DNA of 64,000 nt from Candidatus Electrothrix aestuarii (GCA_032595685.2 CP159373.1:3034193-3098192); one strand, 5' to 3'; counted from the first letter of the stretch, positions 5,419 through 54,600 are shown. Notes: a model not told the origin generated them from the sequence alone. Program-made: numbers and translations.

Positions 5419-5982
5419 ATGATAGGCCTTGAGAACATTGAAGTCGAAGCGGATACGGATGAGGCACAGATACTTGAAGATGAGGAGCTGAAAAAGGAGG
5501 ATGAAGAGAAAAATGCCCAGGCACAGCAGCGTATTCTCTATTATACCTATGGCGGTATGGCTATGGGCTTTGTTCCTTTTCCCCTGCTGGATCTGGCCGC
5601 ATTAAGTGCCTTGCAGTTGAAAATGTTGCATAGACTCTCTGAAATTTATGGGGTAGATTTCTATGGAAAAATGGGGCGCTCCGCAAGCAGTAGCCTTGTT
5701 GGTGGCCTTTTTCCTGTGGCCTCTGCTGCACCGGTGGCAGCCAGTTTGACCAAATTTATTCCGGGGATCGGCCATTTTCTCTCCTACGGGACCCTGGTGG
5801 TTCTCAACGGCGCTTCAACCTATGCAGTAGGGAAAGTTTTTGCCCGCCATTTTGCTTCCGGCGGTACCTTCCTGAATTTTGATCCTGACGCTGTGCGTGA
5901 TTATTTTGCTGAACAGTATGAAAAGGGCAAAGAGGTTGTTGCTGTTTTGAAAAAGAAAGGAAAACCAAGCAAAGAATTGTGA
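5419..5982 (+). CDS. DUF697 family membrane protein
   Basis: 187 residues. The first 40 are acidic (EADTDEAQILEDEELKKEDE) and probably cytoplasmic; the rest is the DUF697 module, with GGMAMGFVPFPLLDLAAL and a second hydrophobic pair around the GHFLSYGTLVVLNG segment, both typical of this membrane-associated family found alone or behind GTPase domains (YcjF-like). It lies 49 bp downstream of ppk1 and on the same strand, so co-transcription is plausible. The family has no established biochemical activity. Confidence 0.8.
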   Translation: MIGLENIEVEADTDEAQILEDEELKKEDEEKNAQAQQRILYYTYGGMAMGFVPFPLLDLAALSALQLKMLHRLSEIYGVDFYGKMGRSASSSLVGGLFPVASAAPVAASLTKFIPGIGHFLSYGTLVVLNGASTYAVGKVFARHFASGGTFLNFDPDAVRDYFAEQYEKGKEVVAVLKKKGKPSKEL

Positions 5983-6069
5983 TCAGGTGGGGCTATATCT
6001 GCTATAATAGATTATTGATAGAGCGTAATGAATAATGGGGATGATGTGTTGCCCAAATGAGGACAGGTT

Positions 6070-6204
6070 ATGAAGAGCAAGAAAGATGTACCCAAAAAAA
6101 ATATTTTTAAGAAACCTTTGAGAAAAAAAGGCATTGTGTTGAGATCCCAGGTAAAGGCCGGAGGCTTCTGGGAGGATATGCGGGCCTTATATGGAATGAA
6201 ATGA
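6070..6204 (+). CDS. small basic peptide with RK-x-G ... VKAGG motif (peptide P1; candidate RiPP/exported peptide precursor)
   Basis: 44 codons, ATG at 6070, TGA at 6202-6204, with a good Shine-Dalgarno (GAGGA) ending seven bases before the ATG. The first 24 residues are extremely lysine-rich (KKDVPKKNIFKKPLRKKG), followed by LRSQVKAGG and a C-terminal stretch FWEDMRALYGMK. The RK.G...VKAGG part resembles the four peptides at 24.5-29 kb around the asparagine-synthetase-like gene. The Gly-Gly could be a cleavage site for the C39 peptidase-ABC exporter encoded 3 kb downstream, though canonical leader residues at -4, -7 and -12 do not fit well. A strong terminator follows, so it is its own transcription unit. 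Function unknown. Confidence 0.6.
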   Translation: MKSKKDVPKKNIFKKPLRKKGIVLRSQVKAGGFWEDMRALYGMK

Positions 6205-6236
6205 GTGGATCCTCTGCTGGATGCATTCTTCTTTTT

Positions 6237-6276
6237 GCCACACTCTGGAGTTAGGATCAGACGTGTGGCTTTTTTG
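6237..6276 (+). terminator. Rho-independent terminator after peptide P1
   Basis: Inverted arms GCCACAC (6237-6243) and GTGTGGC (6263-6269), extended by CTG/CAG pairs, are followed directly by a run of T. It sits 32 bp after the P1 stop codon and 50 bp before the lipoprotein start, separating the peptide gene from the exporter operon. Confidence 0.85.
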
Positions 6277-6325
6277 TTTTACTCAAGAATAATTGCGCGT
6301 TAGGCCAAGAGTAGAGTTCTTTTTG

Positions 6326-8653
6326 ATGAAATTGAAAAAAGCCGCTGGGGTCTTGCTCGGCATACTTCTTCTTATATCCGGCTGTCAGAGCGAGCGGCAG
6401 ACTGTTAAGCAGGTTACGGAAAAAGAAGATGCAAGTACGATTCATCTCGGTGTGGCTTGGGTGCGGGGGGATGGGTTGTTCATTGAGGGTGCGGAACTGG
6501 CAGTGGAAGAGGCCAATGCCTCGGGCGGTGTCTTGCAGAAAAAGATCAAGCTCATCATCAGTGAGGAGGAAGCCGATACATCTGCTACTCTGAATCATAC
6601 CTCTAGCTTGATGGTCGGTGAAAATGTCAAAGAATACTCAAGAGAAACAGCTCGCTATTTTATTCGTCACCCCCGACCTATTACAGCGGTTATAGGCCAT
6701 CGATATTCCTTTATGGCGCTTTCTGCGGCTGGCCTTTACCAACAGAGCAGGATGCTTTTTCTTGCCCCGACAGCCACCAATGACCTCTTGACCAGCATGG
6801 ATTTTGACTATGTTTTTCGCATGGTCCCGAAGAACAGTGTCTTAGGTCGGCAACTGGCTATGTATGCAGCAGCCCGTGGAATCAAACGGGTGGCGATTTT
6901 TAATGAACGAAGTGAGGACGCCCTGGAACTGGGCGCGGCCCTGAAACAATCTCTGGCAGGGCAGGGCGTGCAGACTGTGGTGGAATATTCCTTTTTCAGC
7001 GGAATGTCTGGGCGGGAATTCACCTCCTATGCGATGGAGTTTAAGCGCCACCATAAAAAAGATCCTGTGGATGCGGTGTTTCTGTTGGTTGGCGGCGATA
7101 TGGCTCGCAGTATTATCCGGGAATTTTATAAGCGGGGGGTAGGTGATACGGTTTTTCTCACCGGAGAAGGTGTTGATGAACACGGCTTTTGGCAGACCAT
7201 GCAGGAGCTCCAGGAAGAAATAAAAGAACCAATTTATGTCGGCGTGCCCACCCTGTTTCAGGATAATAGTGAATATACCCGTTTCTTTCGGGAAAAATTT
7301 TCCCAAGTTTATGAAACTCCTCCAGATAGTTTGGCTGCTCTGGGCTATGATTCTGTGAATATTTTATTGGCCGCAGTGGAGCAGGCTGGAGCAGCCGCAC
7401 CGGATAAGGTGGTGGATGAACTCCGTTACTTGCGGGCCTGCCAAGGCCTGACCCGTAAAATCGCCTTTCAGGATACTGGGGATATTGAGTACAAACCCTA
7501 CCTGATCAAATGGATGACGGCGACCGGCTTTGAGTATCGTGATGTAAAGGATCAGGTTATTGCGCCTGATACCTATACCAGCGCCTTGCCCGGCTGTGTG
7601 AATATTGATCGGGATAAAGACGGTATCGTTGATAAGCGTGATATCTGCCCTGATAATAGCAAGGAGGAATTGGTGCAGGGGGTTTTTCTCAAAGGAGAAA
7701 AGAGAGGTTGTCCTCTGGATACAGATAAGGACGGATTACCCGATTACCTGGATGCATGTCCTCATAATACAGAGGAAGAGCTGACCCAAGGCGTAGATGC
7801 CCAGGGCTGCCCAGTGGATCTGGATCAGGATAAGGTGTTGGATTTTAGAGATGAGTGCTTGCAGAGTACCCCGGAGGCGCTGAGTAAAGGGGTAGATGCT
7901 CAAGGGTGTCCTGCGGATACGGACCAGGACGGCGTGGGGGATTATGTTGATCTTTGTCCGAACAGTGCTCCGCAGGAAATCAAGGAGGGAGTCGATCTGA
8001 CCGGCTGCCCTGTTGATGAGGACAAAGACGGGGTACCCAATTACTGGGATGCTTGCCCGAAGAGTACAGAGGAAGAACTACGTTTCGGTGTGGAACGAGA
8101 CGGCTGCCCGCAGGATACGGATAATGACCAGCACCCTGACTTTCAGGATCATTGTCGGGAAGATTCGCCAGCAGACTTGGCCTTAGGAACAGATGAGCAG
8201 GGCTGTCCCAAGGACAGCGATCAGGATGGGGTCTATGATGTGTATGATGCCTGTCCAGACACTGCACCGGGAACCTGGGTGAACGAACATGGGTGTACCT
8301 TGCTGACTTTGTTTTCAGATAGCAGTTTTGCGAGCGGCAAAGCAACCTTATCTGCTGAGGCTGAGCAGAAATTGCAGGACTTTGCCGGGAAATTGGTCCT
8401 GGAACTTATCGAGCGCATTATCATTACCGCCCATGCGGACAGTCAGGGGGCAGATGATTTTAACCTCCGTCTATCGGAGGAGCGCGCCGAGTCGGTGGCT
8501 CGTTTTTTAGAGCAGGAGGGCATTCCGGCAGGAATTATTTACACCCAAGGAGCTGGAGAAAGCCAACCTATTGCTGATAATGCAACAGAAGAGGGACGCA
8601 GAAAAAATCGTCGGGTAGAGCTGAATGTGCTCCTGAAGGCAAAAAAACACTGA
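6326..8653 (+). CDS. outer-membrane-type lipoprotein: periplasmic ligand-binding domain + thrombospondin type 3 repeats + OmpA domain
   Basis: 775 residues from the ATG at 6326, chosen because it gives a clean lipoprotein signal (hydrophobic core, then LISGC lipobox); the frame is open 11 codons further up. Residues ~30-400 look like a branched-chain amino-acid receptor/ABC substrate-binding protein (Peripla_BP_6). Residues ~425-660 hold about eight Asp-rich calcium-binding TSP3-type repeats (DxDxDGxxDxxDxCP with GC). The last ~120 residues are a peptidoglycan-binding OmpA domain (ITAHADSQG, LSEERAESVARFL, RRKNRRVEL). It is the first gene of a five-gene operon with two ABC exporters, so it may link the exporter to the cell wall and outer membrane while sensing a ligand. 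Confidence 0.85.
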   Translation: MKLKKAAGVLLGILLLISGCQSERQTVKQVTEKEDASTIHLGVAWVRGDGLFIEGAELAVEEANASGGVLQKKIKLIISEEEADTSATLNHTSSLMVGENVKEYSRETARYFIRHPRPITAVIGHRYSFMALSAAGLYQQSRMLFLAPTATNDLLTSMDFDYVFRMVPKNSVLGRQLAMYAAARGIKRVAIFNERSEDALELGAALKQSLAGQGVQTVVEYSFFSGMSGREFTSYAMEFKRHHKKDPVDAVFLLVGGDMARSIIREFYKRGVGDTVFLTGEGVDEHGFWQTMQELQEEIKEPIYVGVPTLFQDNSEYTRFFREKFSQVYETPPDSLAALGYDSVNILLAAVEQAGAAAPDKVVDELRYLRACQGLTRKIAFQDTGDIEYKPYLIKWMTATGFEYRDVKDQVIAPDTYTSALPGCVNIDRDKDGIVDKRDICPDNSKEELVQGVFLKGEKRGCPLDTDKDGLPDYLDACPHNTEEELTQGVDAQGCPVDLDQDKVLDFRDECLQSTPEALSKGVDAQGCPADTDQDGVGDYVDLCPNSAPQEIKEGVDLTGCPVDEDKDGVPNYWDACPKSTEEELRFGVERDGCPQDTDNDQHPDFQDHCREDSPADLALGTDEQGCPKDSDQDGVYDVYDACPDTAPGTWVNEHGCTLLTLFSDSSFASGKATLSAEAEQKLQDFAGKLVLELIERIIITAHADSQGADDFNLRLSEERAESVARFLEQEGIPAGIIYTQGAGESQPIADNATEEGRRKNRRVELNVLLKAKKH

Positions 8654-39527: not shown

Positions 39528-39705
39528 TTCTTTGGCGGAAAGGCAGAGGAATAGCTCTTGCTGGCAAGGCCTTTGTCTTTTTCTTTCTCGTGCTTGAGTC
39601 TCGAATAAACAAAATGTGCTATTTTGTTCTCTGGAAGTCGAGTATACTCAATTGTGATACAATGTGGTTTGTGGTGGGCCAGGAAAAAAAGAGGAGGTAG
39701 GAATA

Positions 39706-40113
39706 ATGAGCTTAATCAAGTGGGATGATAGTTTTAGCGTCAATGTCAGCAGGGTTGATCAGGAGCATAAAAAGCTCTTTGACATGATCAATGAACTGAC
39801 TGATGCTATGAAGGCAGGGAAAGGAAAAGATGTGCTGGGAGGTATTCTGGACGGATTGGTTTCGTACACAGCTTCCCATTTTCAAACTGAGGAAAATTAT
39901 TTTCAGCAGGTAAAATATCCTGATGCAGCTGCGCATAAAAAGGAACATGTCGCCTTTGTCAAAAAGGTGACGGAGTTTAAAAAAGAGTTCGACGCAGGTC
40001 GGGCAACGGTTTCTGTTAATATCTTGCAGTTTCTCAGTAAGTGGTTGCAAACCCATATTAAGGGGACAGACCAGAAGTATAGCAACTTCCTTAACGAGCA
40101 CGGCATCAAGTAG
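39706..40113 (+). CDS. bacteriohemerythrin, copy 1
   Basis: 135 residues from ATG 39706 (AGGAGG Shine-Dalgarno). A four-helix di-iron oxygen-binding protein with the ligand set in order: VDQEHKKLF, SHFQTEENYF, HKKEHVAFV and THIKGTDQKY, i.e. the H...HxxxE...HxxxH...HxxxxD pattern. Likely binds or scavenges O2 in the cytoplasm. A near-identical paralogue follows about 250 bp downstream. Confidence 0.95.
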   Translation: MSLIKWDDSFSVNVSRVDQEHKKLFDMINELTDAMKAGKGKDVLGGILDGLVSYTASHFQTEENYFQQVKYPDAAAHKKEHVAFVKKVTEFKKEFDAGRATVSVNILQFLSKWLQTHIKGTDQKYSNFLNEHGIK

Positions 40114-40367
40114 CGGCATTGCCTTTCTTATCAATCGGGGCTGATAAAAAGTTACTTTTCGCCCCAGTGGTAATCTATTCCCCCATTTTTTCTCTATTTC
40201 CTGACTGGATAAAGGAATTGCTACAGGAATCGGAATAACCTCTTTGTAAGCGGCTAATAGGCTGGAGTCAAACGTTACTCTCTTGACCGCCCCAAAACAG
40301 GATAAAGAACTTCGTGTAGCATTGTGGCTGTTGAGACAGTCGTAATCTGAAAGGTGAGGTTGAAAAT

Positions 40368-40775
40368 ATGAGTCTTATCAGGTGGAACGATAGCTTTAGT
40401 GTAAATGTCAGCAAGATTGATCAGGAGCATAAAAAACTTGTTGAGATGGTCAATGAACTCACAGATGCTATGAAGGAAGGGCAAGGCAAGGAGGTTCTCG
40501 GAGAAATTTTGAATGGGCTGATAGCGTACACAGCCTCTCATTTTCAAACTGAGGAGAACTACTTCCGTCAGGTGAAATACCCTGATGCTGAGGAGCATAA
40601 AAAAGAACATGTGGCCTTTGTGCAAAAGGTTAGCGAGTTTAAGCAGGAGTTTGATGCCGGGCGGGCGACCGTGTCGGTGAATGTCCTGCAATTCCTCAGT
40701 AAATGGTTACAGACCCACATCAAGGTCGCTGACCAGAAGTACAGCAGTTATTTGAACGAGAAGGGGATAAAGTAA
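40368..40775 (+). CDS. bacteriohemerythrin, copy 2
   Basis: 135 residues, same ligand pattern (IDQEHKKLV, SHFQTEENYF, HKKEHVAFV, THIKVADQKY) and very similar to copy 1, differing mainly in the second helix region and near the C-terminus. A recent tandem duplication, with its own spacer of about 250 bp that may hold a separate promoter, so the two could be expressed under different oxygen conditions. Confidence 0.95.
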   Translation: MSLIRWNDSFSVNVSKIDQEHKKLVEMVNELTDAMKEGQGKEVLGEILNGLIAYTASHFQTEENYFRQVKYPDAEEHKKEHVAFVQKVSEFKQEFDAGRATVSVNVLQFLSKWLQTHIKVADQKYSSYLNEKGIK

Positions 40776-43437: not shown

Positions 43438-43676
43438 AGGTACTTCTCTTCCAGGTATTTTTTGTACTCACCCTCTCCGAGACCGCCTTTTTTCAAGGCT
43501 CCCTTGAGGGAGCGTACTGTAGGGGGCAGTACCTGCTCCCTATCCTGGTTCTCGTTTTGTATTGTCTGGAAGAAATCAGCAACGATACGGGAGAGCGATT
43601 TGCCGGTCTTTGCGGAGTATTCTTTGGCCGCCGCAATCAGGCTTTCGTCCATTCGCAGGGTTAATTTCGTATTCAT
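43434..43676 (-). CDS. DUF6364-like ribbon-helix-helix antitoxin
   Basis: 80 residues: a short ribbon-helix-helix (NTKLTLRMDESLIAAAKEYSA, then GKSLSRIVADFF) for operator binding and a flexible C-terminal tail (LKGALKKGGLGEGEYKKYLE) for toxin binding. First gene of the toxin-antitoxin unit. Confidence 0.85.
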   Translation of the reverse strand: MNTKLTLRMDESLIAAAKEYSAKTGKSLSRIVADFFQTIQNENQDREQVLPPTVRSLKGALKKGGLGEGEYKKYLEEKYL

Positions 43677-43856
43677 AGTAGCACCTTTTGGGAAGACGTA
43701 TTCTGTTTATTATTTTATACGTCGTGCGGGTGGGAAAGTCAACAGATCAGAGCGGGAGCGGTGCAGGCGCAGGGTGGATCGGTAGGGGTGGAGTCACCAT
43801 GCTGGTACCGGGCGAGTCAGCATGATGGCATGAGCCTCGTCATATGTATGATACGG

Positions 43857-43903
43857 CCTGAGTCATAGGGTTGACACTGAGGGAGTTATAACTATGACTC
43901 AGG
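43857..43903. repeat. 12-bp perfect inverted repeat
   Basis: CCTGAGTCATAG (43857-43868) and CTATGACTCAGG (43892-43903) around a 23-base loop that contains TTGACA. It may be an IS end, an operator or a hairpin. Confidence 0.65.
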
Positions 43904-43932
43904 CAGCAAGCAGAAGGCGACTGGTTCTTCCT

Positions 43933-44068
43933 TTATCGTCTCCGCCGCTTGGCCCGCACCCGTTTTAAACCATCGCGGAATTGCTCCAAGGAAGGGTAAC
44001 TGATGTGAATAACAGTCAACGCAGTGTCGATCGGCAAATGAAAATCACTGACGCTCGCTGCAAGTTAA
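43933..44068 (-). pseudogene. C-terminal gene remnant
   Basis: An open stretch without start, reading SDFHLPIDTALTVIHISYPS then LEQFRDGLKRVRAKRRRR and stop. The basic C-terminus and protein-like composition suggest a leftover of a transposase or similar gene; the family is not recognised. Confidence 0.3.
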
Positions 44069-44103
44069 AATTTGTTTACCATGAAATTGAGGTCTGACAG
44101 GGC

Positions 44104-44215
44104 ACTAGTACAGTCGGGCGTAAATCGCCCTATACTTTTGGGAGGCACTTTTCCAATTTTCACAAGGCATTTTTCTGTAAAAAGCAGTGCAAAATTTACG
44201 CCGCGCTGTACTAGT
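44104..44215. mobile_element. 112-bp MITE-like element
   Basis: Ends are ACTAGTACAGTCGGGCGTAA and, as reverse complement, ACTAGTACAGCGCGGCGTAA, i.e. about 22-bp inverted repeats with 3 mismatches. There is no coding capacity inside. The right end lies at the stop codon of the next gene, so the element may supply that stop. Confidence 0.65.
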
Positions 44216-47200
44216 TAGTTTTCCAGCAGATAATCTGTGAGTGCCTCAAGCTCTGATTCGGAGCCGCTGAAAGGAGTCATAACCATATTTGCCGGACTTG
44301 GAGGCTGACGGATGAATTCCATGAGTTCACCCCTCTTATTTTGATACTTTTCTGCCACGTTCGTCAAATCAGGTCCTATGGTGCCGCCTTGCCCCTGATA
44401 GGCATGACAGCCCTTGCATCCCTGGAAGACCTGCTTACCGTTTACAGCCGCTTCATTGCCTTGATCCGATCCAGCTGTATTCTTATCCTTCATTGTCTTG
44501 GCGAAGGTCTGGTCTATACTCATAACATAGGCTTGGCCGTTCCCGTCTTTATATAACTGCTTTGCTTGTTCTATAGTAAGTATAGGATCTACCTGCACAG
44601 AAACTTTAAAAGAATGCCCCGAGTTGGTAATAAGAACTGAATCCAGACCTTTTCCCTTTGCTTCAATAAGTCCGTCGGATGAAACTGTGATTATGTCTTC
44701 CGTTCCGCTTTCTGTGGCATAGGTTGTGCCTAATTCACCTTCTGCAATATTGAATTCTGAGCCGTTAGGGTATTTTCCTATGACCTCAAGTTGATAGGTG
44801 GAACCAACTTGGGAGAGCAGGATATCTTCCTGTGACGAGCTGATTGAATCCGGTGAGCCTTCGGGTACAACGAGTATATGGGAAGAGAAGGAGTATGATT
44901 CCTTATCAGAACCAATTGTATCTACATAGATGTTTATTTTTCCTGCTTTATAGGGTGGGATTTTATAATTCGCAACGTAAGGTGGCTCACCTTTGACCTG
45001 TATTACCTTATTGTCTATTTGGAAAAAAGCCGCTTTCTGTTCATCCTCCCCTTGTATATCAAATTTTATGTCAACGTTTCCGCCCGGCCTGATAACGGTG
45101 CCTGCCAGTGGCACAAACTTTATTGATGTACCTAAAATATATCCTTTTGTATCTGTTTTTGCAGGGGATTTACAGTCGGTATATTCAGTTTGCTCATTAT
45201 TAGCAGAAGTCGCTGTAAAGAAACCCCATTGTTTATTTTCTTCCCCTCGTAACGAGGTAACCAGTTTATTTTTTAATAAGAGATTAATAATATTTTTAGA
45301 AACTTTTTTTGACGTTGTCTCGCCAGAGTCTTCAATAACAGGAAGAGGAGCATGCACAACCCCCTTCACAACGCTTGTTTTTTGACCTGATAACCCTCCA
45401 CGCTGGCTTTTTGCAGTAACAATTGTATCGTGTTCCTTTCCCAACAATCTGTCAACACTGATTTTTTCGTTATTATCTTTCAGTCTTATATCGAATTTAC
45501 CCAATAAGAAATCCAGTTGAAACGCGATATTGAAGCCTAACTCGAAAATAGAATTATCCGAGGCAATTCCTATAACTGCATGTGAGGGAACATCGGTTAA
45601 CGGAATATTAGCAATAGCCTCACTTACAATCTGAAGATCCTCTACTCCTTGATCTATCGGCTTTTTTCGTGCTGACATCCATTCTTTAAGACTGATGCCA
45701 ACACCATAGCGTTTGCAAAATGATTTACATTTTTCTTTGCACCTTAATACTGGTCCGGGAGATTCATTACATTTTGTATAACAATCTCTGTCTGGCTCGC
45801 AGCGCATATACATTTTTTTGACATCTTTACATTCTGCTAAAACATTTCCAAAAGGTGAACCTTGATGAGGCGTTCCTATCGTAATAATTTTATGAAAATC
45901 TCCTTTATTGTAATTATCTTTTCTCTTGTATTTATCTCCCATCCATACTGTTCTTGCCCGTGTAATCAGCCCCCCCATGCTATGACCAACAACATCGACC
46001 TGAGAGGCGGCGATTCCTTTCTTTCGATGGTCGAGTAATGCATCATTAGTTTTATTAACAAGTTGATTTATTGGGTAACTGTTAGATTGTGGATTGAAGG
46101 TAGCAGCTGAGTGTTCGCTATAATCTACTAGGTAAGTTTTAAATCCTTTTTCTTTTAAAGAGGCATCAAGCCCTTCATCCCAGCAACTCATGTTGTCATA
46201 GTCTGTCAGGTAGAGATTTGAAGGAATTTCAGTAGCTAAAGAGCTAGAGCAGACCTTCCGACTCCACGTTTCCTTATCACTCCATAAACCATGAATCAGA
46301 ACGACTGGCGGCGGCACGAGTTCTAACTCCTTGATAACAGAATTTCCGGCAGAGTCTGTAGCCTCAATTATGGCTGTCTTCTTAGTTATCTCAGTAGCAT
46401 CAGAACCAGCCGGGAAATTGAGCGGAGCTTTGTACAGGGCAAATACGTAATTATCACCGTTCCCATATTGATGGGATTCATGTATCGTAATAGTTTTTTG
46501 ACATGATGAGGCAGGAGTTGAATCGGAAAGATTGTTTGAAATATTCATCGAAGCTGGCTGAAAATCAGGAGAGCCGGGTGTCTGACCATTATAAGACGAC
46601 AATTCTCCTAACTCACATGATGAAGCATTTTTAATGGTGAATGTAACAGGGCCGCTACTCTTAGCTCGGAGAAGTAACCGGGTAACGCCATCTGTAACTA
46701 CTCCTTTGCGATGAACACTGAAATTAAATAAATTCGTTTCAGAGAGATAAATGCTGTCAGATGTCGTGTCGAAAGTGGCATTCTCTAAATATTTTCCATT
46801 GCAGTTTTTCTGGGAGTCTTCACCCTCACATGCAGGGTCTAGAGCGTCCAGAGATGCTATAGATAGAACAGGCAGCATCCCGAGTTTTTTTTGGAACATG
46901 TATTGATCTTCGTCGGCTACAAGCGCCCCGTTGTCCAAAAGTATTTTTGCAACTTTTCTGTGCCCGTTATGAGTTTCACCCCAATTGTATATCAACCTGA
47001 ACAAGAGGAAATTGGTAGATTTGGCCTTCATGCTCATATCTGCTCCTCTTTCTATGAGTAATTTTGTAACTTCAGGCTGTCCAAATCTTACAGCCCAAGT
47101 CAAGGCTGTATAGTCTGACATTGAAAAATTGTAACTCTCTTTTTTAGAGATGTTGCCGTTATTGATGTCAGCACCGTGATCTAAAAGAATTTCGACAAGG

Positions 47201-48429
47201 TCAAGGTATCCTTTTGTTGCTGCTACAGTTAGAGCGGAGTGGCCGATTTTCCTTTGATTTCTTCTAGTTGTCGTGATGCCCTTTATTTTTGTTGGCATTT
47301 TTATGACTTTATTTCTAATATTTGGATCGGCACCATGGTCTATCAACAACTTTACAGATTCAGTATCCCCATTTTCTGTAGATTTTATTAATGCGGAATT
47401 TCCCTCAACGTTAATGGCATTAATGTCAGCACCTGCTTCAAGCAGTAGCTGTATAATATCATGGTGTCCGTTTTCCGCTGCTGCTATGAGTGGTGTATAG
47501 CTATACAAATTTTTGATGTTAATATTGGCTTTATTTTCAATAAGCAATTTAACAAGATCGGTGTGACCTCTCTGAGCTGCTAAAATTAAAGCGGGTTCTC
47601 CTTGTAAAGGGCCATAAAAGTCAATGCAGAATTTTAAAGTTTCCTTTTCTGTTAGAGGGTCAGCAATATGATAGTGAGATTTATCAGTGTTAATCTGTTT
47701 CTTACAGTATATTCTGGGTAGTGAGTCAATCTTTGCCCCTTTTTTTATAAGGAGATCAACTATGTCGTAATGACCATTAAAAACAGCCCACATTAAGGGT
47801 GTTTCGGCAAACCCTTCTTTGGGATTTATTTCAGCCCCCTCCTTAATGAGGTATTTAACTGTTTCAAAGTGCCCATACGCCGCTGCCACAGTTAAGGCGG
47901 TTTCCCCTGCAAATTCATAATAAGGCTTTTTAGGGTATGGGAGTCTATGATATATTTTGGTGGTATTCAAACTAGCACCATGTTGGCGCAAAAGTTTGAT
48001 AATTTCTGTATGGCCTTCTTGCGCTGCCATAATCAAGGCTGTAAATTCATCAAAATCATATTTTGGATCAACTTTCTGAAAATAATCCAGCAGGCCGCGT
48101 GATCGTACAGGGGACATTGGATAATCATAATGAAATGGCATTGTGACCCCAGAGAATATTGGTCCATTACTAATTGGTATTGATGCATTCAGGCGGATAT
48201 TACTGTCTAAATGTTTTTTGACGGCCTCAATATCGCCGGATTTCGCGGACTGAAGAAAATCCAAATATGTTTTGAAGAGCGAACTTTGTTCTTCCCTTGA
48301 CTCTAAATTGTAGAGCAAAGCAAAAAGAGATTTGATCTCTCCCTCTGGTTTTGTATCTGAGGCTGAGGAGTTTGAGAAAAAGGAGGTTAGGCAAAGTAAC
48401 AGGATTGCAGAAAGAATGTATTTATTCAT
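44215..48429 (-). CDS. secreted ankyrin-repeat / lipase-like hydrolase / Ig-like / mono-heme cytochrome c fusion protein
   Basis: 1404 residues from ATG 48429 (AGGAA Shine-Dalgarno; 12 extra codons upstream ignored) with a signal peptide (ILSAILLLCLTSFFSNSSAS). Residues ~90-490: about ten ankyrin repeats (GHTEIIKLLRQHGA-type). Residues ~720-900: alpha/beta hydrolase of lipase type with VLIHGLWSD and the nucleophile elbow GHSMGG (Ser near 815), then TIGTPHQGSP. A Cys-rich insert follows (CEPDRDCYTKC ... CKEKCKSFC). Residues ~1180-1290: BIG2-like Ig domain. The last ~85 residues are a class I cytochrome c: CKGCH haem site near 1338 and MVMTPFSG with an axial Met. AT-richer than its neighbours. 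I know of no such combination. Confidence 0.85.
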   Translation of the reverse strand: MNKYILSAILLLCLTSFFSNSSASDTKPEGEIKSLFALLYNLESREEQSSLFKTYLDFLQSAKSGDIEAVKKHLDSNIRLNASIPISNGPIFSGVTMPFHYDYPMSPVRSRGLLDYFQKVDPKYDFDEFTALIMAAQEGHTEIIKLLRQHGASLNTTKIYHRLPYPKKPYYEFAGETALTVAAAYGHFETVKYLIKEGAEINPKEGFAETPLMWAVFNGHYDIVDLLIKKGAKIDSLPRIYCKKQINTDKSHYHIADPLTEKETLKFCIDFYGPLQGEPALILAAQRGHTDLVKLLIENKANINIKNLYSYTPLIAAAENGHHDIIQLLLEAGADINAINVEGNSALIKSTENGDTESVKLLIDHGADPNIRNKVIKMPTKIKGITTTRRNQRKIGHSALTVAATKGYLDLVEILLDHGADINNGNISKKESYNFSMSDYTALTWAVRFGQPEVTKLLIERGADMSMKAKSTNFLLFRLIYNWGETHNGHRKVAKILLDNGALVADEDQYMFQKKLGMLPVLSIASLDALDPACEGEDSQKNCNGKYLENATFDTTSDSIYLSETNLFNFSVHRKGVVTDGVTRLLLRAKSSGPVTFTIKNASSCELGELSSYNGQTPGSPDFQPASMNISNNLSDSTPASSCQKTITIHESHQYGNGDNYVFALYKAPLNFPAGSDATEITKKTAIIEATDSAGNSVIKELELVPPPVVLIHGLWSDKETWSRKVCSSSLATEIPSNLYLTDYDNMSCWDEGLDASLKEKGFKTYLVDYSEHSAATFNPQSNSYPINQLVNKTNDALLDHRKKGIAASQVDVVGHSMGGLITRARTVWMGDKYKRKDNYNKGDFHKIITIGTPHQGSPFGNVLAECKDVKKMYMRCEPDRDCYTKCNESPGPVLRCKEKCKSFCKRYGVGISLKEWMSARKKPIDQGVEDLQIVSEAIANIPLTDVPSHAVIGIASDNSIFELGFNIAFQLDFLLGKFDIRLKDNNEKISVDRLLGKEHDTIVTAKSQRGGLSGQKTSVVKGVVHAPLPVIEDSGETTSKKVSKNIINLLLKNKLVTSLRGEENKQWGFFTATSANNEQTEYTDCKSPAKTDTKGYILGTSIKFVPLAGTVIRPGGNVDIKFDIQGEDEQKAAFFQIDNKVIQVKGEPPYVANYKIPPYKAGKINIYVDTIGSDKESYSFSSHILVVPEGSPDSISSSQEDILLSQVGSTYQLEVIGKYPNGSEFNIAEGELGTTYATESGTEDIITVSSDGLIEAKGKGLDSVLITNSGHSFKVSVQVDPILTIEQAKQLYKDGNGQAYVMSIDQTFAKTMKDKNTAGSDQGNEAAVNGKQVFQGCKGCHAYQGQGGTIGPDLTNVAEKYQNKRGELMEFIRQPPSPANMVMTPFSGSESELEALTDYLLEN

Positions 48430-48719
48430 TGTTGTTCCTGTGAGGTTAGATGGCTCTCGTGACAAGAGAAAGGAAGTGTATGTTACGTCCGCTTAACTTT
48501 TTTTTTCTGGTAAGTCAAGGGATTGTTTTTCTGTGACTCTGTTAGTGGTTATAAAAAAAGCCCCTCTCGATTTTACTCGGAAGGGGCTTTCTCGTTTCAG
48601 TGTGCCTGAATGAGAGCAGGCTACAGCATATTAAATTTGTTTGTGGCTCGGCTGATTGTAAGTCCTCGAGGGATTTGAAACGATCATGAAAGAGATTGCA
48701 GATATTCTCTCTCGTTTTT
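48430..48719. other. intergenic region upstream of the fusion protein gene
   Basis: 290 bp with the minus-strand terminator at 48553 and presumably the promoter of the fusion gene between it and 48429. No gene seen. Confidence 0.5.
48553..48590 (-). terminator. Rho-independent terminator (minus strand)
   Basis: Minus strand AAAGCCCCTTCCGAG pairs with CGAGAGGGGCTTTTTTT. Ends transcription coming from the chimeric ORF before the large fusion gene. Confidence 0.85.
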
Positions 48720-49040
48720 TTACCTACACGCCAACATCTGCTCATTCAGCCGCTCGGCCTGAAGACAAAAGGCCTCCATCCGGGCCTCGATGAGTTGCGG
48801 AAAGGGGTTGCCGCCAGGTCCGCAGACCGCCACCACCCGGTCAGGGTGCAGGTGCTCATCCAGCCAGGCCAGTTCCTCCTTCCGGTGGAGGAAGACAGCA
48901 TCCTCAGCCGGCAGAGAGCAGGTTGCCTCTGCCGGGGTAGGGGGCGCGCCGGTATAGTAGTTGTTGATCTGCTTGCCGATGGCTCCCTCGCCCTGGCCGA
49001 CGTTCTGGTCTCTGCCTTTGCTCTCGAATTGGTTGCTCAT
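48720..49040 (-). pseudogene. chimeric ORF: STAND NTPase N-terminus joined to a dehydratase-activase C-terminus
   Basis: 106 codons from ATG 49040. The first ~75 residues (QINNYYTGAPPTPAE, then FLHRKEELAWLDEHL and VVAVCGPGG) are the start of a STAND/NB-ARC NTPase up to the Walker A loop. At GPGG the frame passes without break into NPFPQLIEARMEAFCLQAER and LNEQMLACR, identical in protein to the last 29 residues of the activase at 51654-55922. It therefore lacks an ATPase core. A product of recombination, probably non-functional. An IS element sits directly before its start. Confidence 0.75.
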
Positions 49041-50490
49041 GCCCAGCAATTATAAATTTGACAACGTACTATTTTATTTAACGAATATGTGTTATTGAAA
49101 GGCATGATCAATATCACACGAGTCCTCTGCTTATGCCTTCAAATACCAAAGAATTAACATTCGATACGTTTGTCAATCAGATCCATAGCATATTTGATGA
49201 ACTCCCGGATTACCGGAAATTCAGCCCAAACCTCACATATTCAATGAAGGATGCGGCGTTAGGTGCGTTTTCCATGTTTTTCAACCAATCCCCATCATTC
49301 TTATCTCATCAGCGGGCAATGCAGCAGGCTCACGGGCATAATAATGCTCAAAGTTTGTTCGGAATAACACAGATCATGTCGGACAATCAGACCCGCAATC
49401 TTCTTGACACCCTTACTTCTGATAATTTTTATCCAATTTTTTCAGAAACTTTTGATCGGCTTGAAAGTGCTGGACACTTGGATCGTTATAGAGTGCTGGA
49501 TGAATATTTGTTGGTTCCGATAGATGGTACAGAATTTTTTCGTTCCTCCAAAATACATTGTGAAAACTGTTCCGTTGCTCGTAACTCCAACGGAACGGTA
49601 AGTTATTCCCATAAGGTTCTTACCCCGGTGGTAGCTGCACCGGACAACAACAAGGTCATCGCTCTGGAACCAGAATTCGTCACCCCTCAGGATGGTTCAG
49701 CAAAACAGGATTGCGAGTTGAATGCTGCTAAGCGCTGGATTGAACGGAACTCTTCTTTATCGGCTCGAAAAGTTATCATCCTGGGAGACGATTTGTTTTC
49801 CAGAGGGCCGTTTTGCAACTTATTATCGGCACACAGTTTTCGTTTTATCCTGATTTGCAAACCCTCCTCACATACGACCCTTTATCAGTATGTTGCCGAA
49901 CTTGAAAAGAAAGATGGTATTACAGTAAGTTCTCAAAGAAAATGGAACGGAAAATTTCACGAGCTTCATACTTATCGTTATGCTAATGACTTACCCCTCA
50001 AGCAGGGGGATGACGCTCCTTCTGTCAATTGGGTTGAGTTGACCGTCATTAACACCAAAACACAAGAGGTTCTGTATAAAAATACTTTTATCACTGATTT
50101 TAAAATAGACAGAACCAATGTTCAATCTATAGTACAAGCCGGAAGAACTCGATGGAAAGTGGAAAATGAAAACAATAATATCCTCAAAACAAAAGGCTAT
50201 CATTTAGATCACAATTTCGGACATGGTGATAAATTTCTCTCGAACACCTTGCTGACTCTCAACTTGGTCGCATTTCTGGCCCATACTTTCCTGGAATTTG
50301 TTGATAAAAAATACAAAGCCGTCAGATCGGTCTTGTCTGTCCGGAAAACATTTTTTAATGACCTGAAAGCATTAACCAAATATTTATTTTTCAGTAATTG
50401 GTCTCAGCTGATAAATTTTATGTTTGAACAGCTTGAGATTAAAAGGCTATCGACTTGATAATAATAAAATTTAAAATTACTGGCTCATGC
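49036..50490. mobile_element. IS4-like insertion sequence with 7-bp target duplication
   Basis: Element 49043-50483 (1441 bp). Inverted ends: CCAGCAATTATAAATTT on the left and CCAGTAATTTTAAATTT (reverse complement) on the right. Flanked by CTCATGC on both sides (49036-49042 and 50484-50490). The target includes the start codon of the STAND fragment, so the insertion cut that gene from its upstream region. Confidence 0.9.
49133..50458 (+). CDS. IS4-like DDE transposase
   Basis: 441 residues, full length. Catalytic residues can be placed in VPIDGTEFF, IILGDDLFSR and RWKVENENNN (YREK-like E region of IS4-type proteins). The N-terminus (FVNQIHSIFDELPDYRKF) and FFNQSPSFLSHQRAMQ are typical of a widely spread environmental transposase group. 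The exact family is uncertain. The gene appears intact. Confidence 0.88.
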   Translation: MPSNTKELTFDTFVNQIHSIFDELPDYRKFSPNLTYSMKDAALGAFSMFFNQSPSFLSHQRAMQQAHGHNNAQSLFGITQIMSDNQTRNLLDTLTSDNFYPIFSETFDRLESAGHLDRYRVLDEYLLVPIDGTEFFRSSKIHCENCSVARNSNGTVSYSHKVLTPVVAAPDNNKVIALEPEFVTPQDGSAKQDCELNAAKRWIERNSSLSARKVIILGDDLFSRGPFCNLLSAHSFRFILICKPSSHTTLYQYVAELEKKDGITVSSQRKWNGKFHELHTYRYANDLPLKQGDDAPSVNWVELTVINTKTQEVLYKNTFITDFKIDRTNVQSIVQAGRTRWKVENENNNILKTKGYHLDHNFGHGDKFLSNTLLTLNLVAFLAHTFLEFVDKKYKAVRSVLSVRKTFFNDLKALTKYLFFSNWSQLINFMFEQLEIKRLST

Positions 50491-50529
50491 CTGTTCTTGC
50501 CTTTTCTGTTGATGATGCCGCGCATCGTG

Positions 50530-51653: not shown

Positions 51654-54600
51654 TCAGCGGCAGGCCAACATCTGCTCGTTCAGGCGCTCGGCCTGGAGGC
51701 AGAAGGCCTCCATCCGGGCTTCAATGAGCTGCGGGAAGGGGTTGCCATCGGTCTCAATGCAGATGAACGGCAGCTTGCGCTCCTTCTCCAGGATGGGCCG
51801 CCAGCGGGATTCCTCACCGTTGAGCTGGGCCAGCTTCTCGGTGGTGGTGAACTTCTCGTTGAGCACCGCCTCAGCCACCCGCGAGGGCATACAGCCGAAG
51901 GGACCAATGGAGATGATGCCGCAGGAGGGATGGAGGATCTCGTGCATGGCCGAGCCCACCGTGACAATGGTCTCCACAGTGAGGTAGGGGGAAACATACT
52001 TGCTACCCGCTTCCATGACCGGCTCGATAGGGGCATTGCCGTCATAGAAGAACAGTCCGCTCGGTCCGAGCCGCTTGCGGATGGCATGGTTGAAGTAGCG
52101 CTTCACCTGCTCCCGAATAGCAAAGCCCTTGGTCCGCTCGCCCTCGATGTCATGCTTGATCAGCCAGTCAATGAACTTGATGTACTCGCTGATCATGGCC
52201 GTGCGCACGATAAAGCCCCGATCCGCCAGCTTCTCCATGATGTTCTGGAGGGAGAGGGGGTCATGGCGCACGTACATCTCCCCGATCAGGGAGATCTTGG
52301 GGATCTGCTCATAGGGCATCTTCAGCTCAATCTGCTTCAGGCGGGCCGCAGACTTGGAGAGCTGGGAGGCAATAATAGGCCAGCGCCGATGTATAACCTT
52401 CCTGACCGCCTCGAACTCTTCATGAAAGACCTGTAGGCCTGCCTCCCGATCCTTGGCCCCGGCCAGCACGGTGGACCACATCTCGTCAAAGAGGTCACCG
52501 ATGATAATGGCACGCCAGGCCGCCCGCAGGAAGTTGTCCCCCAGGTTGCAATACCCATTCATGGAGGTGGGGGTGAGCATGGCCACGTTCCGGATCTTTT
52601 GTCGCTCCAGCACCCGCTTGGTGTAGACATGGTACTGCCCCAGACGGCAGGGACCGTCGGAGCTGGCCATGTAGTAGATCAGTATCTCGTTGTCCTCACG
52701 TTCTTTGATGCGGTGCAGTAAGCCACCCAGGGTGGTCTGTAAGGGCAGACATTCCTTGCAGGAGGCATTACCACGTCCCAGCTTGAGGACGTCCTCGTTG
52801 GCTGATTCCAGGATTTCCGTGCGGATGCCGATCCTGCCGAAAGCAGCTGCCAGCAAAGGGGTGCAATAGCGGCTCATGGCCGGGATAAGCAGGCGGACCT
52901 TGGGGTCAGAGAGGGGAACCCACTGGGCATCTGAGGTGCGGACGCCAGCGACACCGTCTTTCTCCTCAAGGGTGGCGGCGCGGAAGAGACGATCGCTCAC
53001 CAGGGCAGAGGTCGCCTTTTTCTGGATCTCCCGGTAATAGCGGATAATGTCGAGGAAGGCCTCGATGCGGGTCTCCAGGCCAGCATCAGCGGTATGGCTG
53101 TCCAGCTCCAGGGTCAGGGAGGGCTTGCGGCCCATCACATCCCGGAAAAAGCTAACCAGGAAGGAGTCTGGGCCGCAGGAGAAGTTGGTGATATAGGTGC
53201 CAAAGAGCTGGGGGTGACGCTCGACAAAGCGGGCACCCTTGAGGATGATCTGGCCCATAGCCCAGTACATGTTCTCGTCATCAGAGAGCTTTTCCTCCCA
53301 GTAGGGCAGCATGTCAAAGGGGATCACAGCAATGCCCCGGCTGGCGAATTTGGCCGGAATACCCTTATTGGCCACTGAGGCAAAGGCGTTATAGGGACGA
53401 CCAAAGACCACAGTGCCGAATTTTTCCGGGTCCGCCTCAAGAGCAGCCAAGGCCTCCTTACCCATTGCGCGGATATCCTGGGTAAAGGTCTTCTGGGCCG
53501 TATCCGCCGCCTGCAAGGCCGCATCAACCGTATTGGTATCAACGCCCAATTTGCGGATCAGCTCCTCAAAGGCCTCGGTGTCTGCGGTATTGCCCTTGGA
53601 AAAGTCAATCACTTGGGAGATTACCCGGCCAGCAGGCGTCAGGCCCGGGAAGGCGGTGCGCAGATAATAGGGCTCTCCCTGGACCAGCACGCAGGTGCAG
53701 GAGGTCATATCCGGCTCGCCCATGTCCAGTCCCCGGAGATGGGGCATGAAGATGTAATCCGGCTTTTCCGTCAGCAGGGTTGCTGCGTAATTATGGGCGA
53801 TCTCCACCGGATAGCAAAAGGCTGCTCCCTGCTGATCCATGCCCTTGGGATCTTCCTTGGAGGGCAGGGTGAGGCGGAAGCCCAGCTCGGCAAAGAAGGC
53901 ATTGAAAAAGGGGAAATAGGTGTTGAGGAGAAAGGAGCGGTTCATGCCCACAGTGGGGCGGGTGTCTGTCGGATCAGCTGGTGCCAGATCGCGGAAGACC
54001 CGCTGCTCGCGCTTGATGACCAGATTCAAGTCCTCGGTCCTGACCTTGCGGTTATGGATCAGGTTGTCGTAGCGGTTACAGATACCTCCAAAGGGATAGA
54101 CCTTGTCCTTGATCTTGATCCGGGAGATCTCGCAGCCCCGGTCACAGTCCTTACCTCCGCCGCATTTGAAGGGTTCGCCGTATTCCACCTCACGGGCAAT
54201 GAGTTCCTGGAGATCATATTCCTGGGCTGTGAGCAGCCCCTGCTCCATCCTTCGTTCCACTTCCAGGGCCACACCAAATGCCCCCATGAGTCCGGCCTCG
54301 GAAGGAACCACCACATGTTTGCCGGTCAACCCGGCCATTGCTGCGGGTACGGCCTTATTATAGCAGACTCCGCCCTGAACAAAGACCTTCTTGCCCACGG
54401 GACGGTTGCCCTTAACTCGGTTATTATAATTCATGCCAATGGAGTAGACCAGACCGGCCACGATGTCCTTCAGGGGCACGTTTTCCTGGACTGAGCGTTT
54501 GATGTCCGAGCCGATAAAGGCAGCACACTGGTCGCTGAAGTTGGGCGGAGCTGTGGCCCGGAAAGCGGTATTACCGATCTCGGTCACGGCCAGCCCCAGG

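Follow-up and report, generated by a model that had tools for sequence, protein, structure and literature searches.

Exported ankyrin proteins of bacteria, e.g., Pseudomonas AnkB, carry ankyrin repeats behind a signal peptide and have neither a hydrolase nor a cytochrome. Cable bacteria have a homologue of cytochrome bd subunit I, CydAh, whose cytochrome c domain is oriented toward the periplasm (PMC13047784). A cytochrome c domain is also fused to the enzyme body of a urate oxidase, which as an oxidase depends on an electron acceptor (PMC4562309), and polymorphic toxin systems combine a conserved front with a C-terminal toxin that is exchanged by recombination (PMC3482391).

The gene studied here, at positions 44215-48429 (minus strand) of the window, by which we mean the whole stretch of DNA analysed (64,000 nucleotides), can be compared with each of these systems. 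Its protein shares ankyrin repeats behind a signal-peptide-like start with AnkB, although the hydrolase and the cytochrome are found only in the window protein. With CydAh it shares the cytochrome c tail, the preceding stretch VMSMDQxFTKTMKDK, the spacing and the ligands; however, CydAh has this tail on a multi-helix, oxidase-like membrane body, whereas here the tail is on an ankyrin-esterase with the appearance of an exported protein. As in the urate oxidase, a cytochrome c domain is fused to an enzyme body, but this enzyme is a hydrolase and needs no electron acceptor. As in polymorphic toxin systems, a conserved front precedes an exchanged C-terminus, but what is exchanged is a cytochrome rather than a toxin. 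The protein could not be placed among the polymorphic toxins because of that cytochrome C-terminus and because no immunity gene was recognised adjoining the gene, the neighbouring ORFs being a PIN/DUF6364 pair, NB-ARC remnants, an IS-like ORF and a CoA activase.

Domain Organization of the Window Protein

The gene is a single uninterrupted ORF with its ATG at 48429, its stop codon at 44215-44217 and 1404 codons with no internal stops, which bore out an earlier claim that one protein spans the region. ORF reading, Pfam and motifs gave the order ankyrin repeats, esterase, beta-rich/Ig-like stretch and cytochrome c; the coordinates of these parts below all refer to the minus strand. The genome carrying the gene (G000) was assembled as a single contig of 5.11 Mb, and the host is very probably a cable bacterium. 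Residues 1-24 (48358-48429), read by eye, resemble a signal peptide, with no lipobox seen, and the orthologue in the sister species G003 begins likewise. This start suggests that the window protein is exported.

The ankyrin repeat region, at about residues 128-503 (46921-48048), matched ankyrins and DARPins in the PDB. Several consecutive repeats scored above the Pfam cut-off, as expected of an ankyrin repeat protein (Ank_2, E = 4e-79, 7 stretches; Ank, 206.6 bits, 8 stretches), and the "about ten" repeats counted in the preliminary description are about eight by Pfam. A match to the defence system PDC-M72A was set aside since it involved only the ankyrin part of the window protein. Another exported-looking ankyrin protein, of about 870 residues, was noted in the sister genome G007 (L031, 1976-4585). 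Close to it (5500-6900) are long stretches resembling G/C homopolymers, which look like errors of sequencing.

The alpha/beta hydrolase, residues 706-1055 (45265-46314), is PGAP1/DUF676-like: residues 709-861 scored 31.4 bits against PGAP1 (cut-off 24.3) and 26.0 bits against DUF676 (cut-off 20.3), both above the Pfam gathering score. The nucleophile-elbow motif GHSMGG is at residue 815, and S817, D1001 and H1026, a triad assigned by motif, are invariant in a three-sequence alignment of the G000 and G003 proteins with L044, a distant relative found elsewhere in the phylum. The window hydrolase, with this conserved Ser-Asp-His triad, is a putative serine esterase. GHSMGG, the Asp, the His and a preceding beta domain are common to the window protein, PGAP1/DUF676-type hydrolases and L044; in the window protein the beta-rich domain is directly N-terminal of the hydrolase, at about residues 560-705 (46315-46752). 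In contrast, L044 has no ankyrin front, Cys-rich insert or cytochrome tail. The Cys-rich insert, residues 867-905 (45715-45831), has a twin CX3C pattern (CYTKC-X9-CKEKC), is kept in the G003 orthologue, and suggests a disulphide-bonded hairpin and hence an oxidising compartment.

A beta-rich, Ig/Big-like stretch follows at about residues 1102-1280 (44590-45126). It was recognised from sequence character and is 72% identical in the G003 orthologue, but no Ig/Big domain was matched in the window protein by Pfam at E <= 1, and its borderline match (E 0.02) to an ORF neighbouring the L044 esterase is weak. The ankyrin repeats, GHSMGG hydrolase, Cys-rich insert and CxxCH cytochrome of the preliminary description were thus found, and its Ig-like domain stands less firmly. 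A structure model of residues 694-1404 built without an alignment had a mean pLDDT of 32 and was discarded.

The Cytochrome Tail Is Derived from cydAh

Residues 1301-1404 (44218-44529) form a cytochrome c tail that DNA and protein identity and Pfam assigned to CydAh. The Cytochrom_C score was 31.5 bits in the full protein (residues 1329-1402) and 38.5 bits for the tail alone (cut-off 21.3). Together with CKGCH at residue 1338 (44404-44418) and a candidate distal Met ligand, M1384 (44278-44280), this is the sequence of a class I (mono-haem) cytochrome c. The second match to the window protein in its own genome covered only residues 1302-1404, at about 60-61% identity. It was the C-terminal end of CydAh, a protein in which Pfam found a Cyt_bd_oxida_I body followed by a Cytochrom_C tail. 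No Cyt_bd_oxida_I membrane body was found by Pfam in the window protein, of which only the tail is CydAh-derived.

The last 104 codons were 61-75% identical in amino acids to CydAh tails overall and 69-75% identical to those of other species of the genus. The closest were G005 (75% amino acid and 79% nucleotide identity) and G006 (74%). A copy from the strain's own cydAh was rejected because that gene is less similar (61% and 72%, respectively). The DNA match to the G005 cydAh was gap-free, at 79% identity over 44217-44528, began abruptly at 44528 and ended with the stop codon. The linker before the haem site lies within the homologous stretch (VMSIDQTFAKTMKDK versus VMSMDQQFTKTMKDK), indicating that the tail is the 3' end of cydAh itself and not merely a similar cytochrome. 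Across 74 genomes of the family, CydAh-type tails (E <= 1e-20) were found, besides the window gene, only at CydAh loci of the genera g1 and g10, and one of the two genera with strong scores is the window's own. A tree of the cytochrome tails was weakly supported.

The tail retains both haem ligands and, of the 26 positions that never vary among the CydAh tails compared, it retains 25, the exception being a K to R substitution; the haem domain therefore looks functional. The dN/dS of the tail was about 0.17 versus G005, a low value that may reflect time within cydAh before the fusion and so speaks for an intact domain rather than proving selection after fusion. Two cytochrome c assembly proteins of PF01578 are encoded in the genome, and haem c would be expected to be loaded onto the tail. 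Among other CydAh loci, that of G001 (L014, 1054-2778) has a pair of cytochrome c domains with a repeated linker, GDEAKPAAGDAVDDVQKDV, between them, which points to a duplication of the tail in that genome. In G004 (L018) the CydAh body and cytochrome tail are in different frames, through either a draft-assembly frameshift or a real split.

Replacement of the 3' End

The G003 protein was the only orthologue found for the rest of the gene. It is 59-72% identical in each domain and colinear up to residue 1300, after which it continues into TPR-like repeats, a weak call in Pfam (TPR_2, E = 0.0017, below the cut-off). At residues 1285-1300 (44530-44577), the window protein has a remnant of the first helix of that TPR-like tail, TIEQAKQLYKDGNGQA, where the G003 orthologue goes on SLEQAEQLYKDGKDKAAFAAMQHLAEDGN. 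The junction between the ankyrin-esterase body and the cytochrome tail, at 44529/44530, is sharp and coincides with a change in composition: the body had a GC3 of 34%, as did G003, and the tail one of 51%, close to the 50% of the CydAh tail of G005. An earlier remark that the gene is AT-richer than its neighbours applied to its body, with a GC of 39.8% versus 49.5% for the window, and failed for the tail (48.4%). The TPR-like end of the orthologue, the half-helix remnant and the GC3 split together point to the cytochrome being a 3'-end replacement, the TPR-like form being the likelier ancestor.

One fusion copy, the window gene, and one orthologue are the known members. Searches of the phylum (395 genomes) and the class (258 genomes) at the thresholds used returned only the G000 and G003 proteins and the distant hydrolase L044. 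No relative of the same architecture was found in GTDB contigs, viral contigs, phages or plasmids, although the GTDB and viral scans, made with short peptide patterns, are weak evidence of absence.

The Locus and the Presumed Imported Tract

Comparison with G007, a sister genome of about 97% DNA identity, showed the two to be colinear on both sides of the gene. At the syntenic locus of G007 the chimera is missing and an NB-ARC/TPR gene is present, the body of which is replaced by window positions 43829-48808. The tract presumed to be imported has its left edge at 43600-43828. In these final 230 bases up to 43828 identity to G007, otherwise 97-100%, is only 86-88%, and position 43828 is also the end of a short dispersed repeat. 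At the right edge, 48720-48812 (minus strand), an NB-ARC fragment and the 3' end of a CoA-activase gene form one continuous reading frame. This CoA-activase copy agreed with the strain's own CoA activase, which ends at 51654, at 80 of 96 positions and with five sister sequences at 85 of 96 at best, and its unlikeness to all of them marks it as foreign. The NB-ARC fragment, 48809-49043 (minus strand), is a remnant 99.6% identical to the gene that is intact in G007, where Pfam identified it.

Given the foreign CoA-activase end in the surrounding tract, another species of the genus is the probable source of the chimera, and the gene was apparently imported as a whole; the donor species was not found. 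Loss of the gene from G007 would be a less simple explanation, since the site is occupied by an intact gene in that genome. The suggestion in the preliminary description that the gene was acquired was supported by its lack at the same locus of G007, its differing composition and the foreign flanking tract.

At 48720-49049, the start of the NB-ARC gene with the last 29 codons of the foreign CoA activase constitutes a second in-frame 3'-end paste. The occurrence of two such swaps side by side suggests a common mechanism. The NB-ARC remnant is interrupted by an IS-like element (49044-50474), on either side of which the same 17 bases occur (49027-49043 and 50475-50491). G007 has almost identical copies of the element, whose ORF (49133-50458) had no Pfam hit. 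Elsewhere in the window, at 39664-40775, there are two tandem bacteriohaemerythrin-like genes with 77% DNA identity.

Directly behind the stop codon of the chimera is a MITE-like inverted-repeat element (44105-44215, minus strand) with the terminal inverted repeat ACTAGTACAG. It folds at z = -4.9 and belongs to a multi-copy family in the same genome (74-77%). The sequence following the fused tail is thus this element and not the terminator or flank that follows cydAh. The element may have a CTAG target duplication, and copies were also seen in sister genomes.

Discussion

We consider a recombinational chimera with a docking cytochrome tail to be the best explanation of the origin and function of this gene taken together, at somewhat better than an even chance; for the origin alone, a recombinational chimera with a CydAh-derived tail, our confidence is high. 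The parent would have been an exported protein of the ankyrin-esterase-Ig-like type with TPR-like repeats at its end. These repeats would, in one lineage, have been cut after their first helix and a copy of the cydAh 3' end put in, in frame. The chimera would then have reached the strain within some 5 kb of DNA of another Electrothrix-like species and displaced most of the NB-ARC gene, possibly as a linear fragment that recombined by sequence similarity at one end and was joined illegitimately at the other.

The reverse polarity, with an ancestral cytochrome tail and a later gain of the TPR repeats in the G003 form, has in its favor that only two members are known. We find it most improbable, as the truncated start of a TPR-like helix is retained directly before the junction in the G000 protein and the tail is like cydAh, and unlike the body, in composition. 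Even less credence can be given to a tail from the cydAh of another organism in the sample having been joined by mistake during assembly, assembly error being the refutation that the preliminary description named. The tail is indeed not from the strain's own cydAh, and closely related CydAh tails do occur in other species. However, indirect evidence speaks against this: the genome is a single contig, the reading frame is continuous across the junction, the closest tail in the genome is only the 72% DNA match to its own CydAh, and the stop is followed by a MITE of the genome's own family and not by a cydAh terminator.

The purpose of the tail is a separate question. Illegitimate recombination could have pasted on a passenger whose only role is to fold and end the protein, with the esterase working as before. 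The second in-frame paste shows a locus that makes accidental chimeras, the G003 orthologue needs no cytochrome and the fusion is in one strain only; yet all 104 codons are intact, free of frameshifts and stops, with the ligands and nearly all CydAh-invariant residues conserved, and we hold a mere passenger to be plausible but on balance doubtful. Control of the esterase by the state of the haem, a redox switch such as the preliminary description suggested, appears very unlikely. A haem domain is covalently linked to the hydrolase, in a host group known for the long-distance coupling of sulphide oxidation to oxygen reduction, but some 240 residues, rich in beta structure, separate the hydrolase from the haem, the same triad is present in the G003 orthologue with its TPR-like tail, and no precedent was found in the literature searched. 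A redox-regulated hydrolase, with a haem that senses redox state or passes electrons on to the enzyme, found no support and was dropped as the main reading: the tail was swapped in, and the hydrolase of the sister species does without a cytochrome.

For the chimera with a docking tail, the precursor would be exported by Sec and the tail would receive covalent haem c in the periplasm. The serine esterase would act on an ester or lipid substrate, the ankyrins would bind a partner, and the cytochrome would keep the esterase close to the partners of CydAh in electron transfer, where electrons might be exchanged while hydrolysis proceeded independently. Docking is favored as hydrolysis has no need of electrons and the same hydrolase has a probable protein-interaction tail in G003; as the replaced TPR-like part was such a tail, the cytochrome is, by analogy, most likely a docking tail. 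A function in docking or electron exchange, taken as a whole, nevertheless remains a tentative proposal to which we assign slightly less than an even chance. In the literature found, no partners of the CydAh cytochrome domain are established in cable bacteria. We further speculate, as an unlikely extension, that the cytochrome tail of CydAh acts as a plug that can be moved between proteins and links an exported protein to the electron network in the periplasm of cable bacteria, by which the esterase would be placed on, or redox-coupled to, that network.

A natural transplant of the CydAh domain and a sister form free of cytochrome make it testable whether the domain alone docks to, or exchanges electrons with, the periplasmic network. 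The gene is also a clear example of the 3' end of one gene being swapped for that of another, after which the product was probably transferred from one cable-bacterial species to another.
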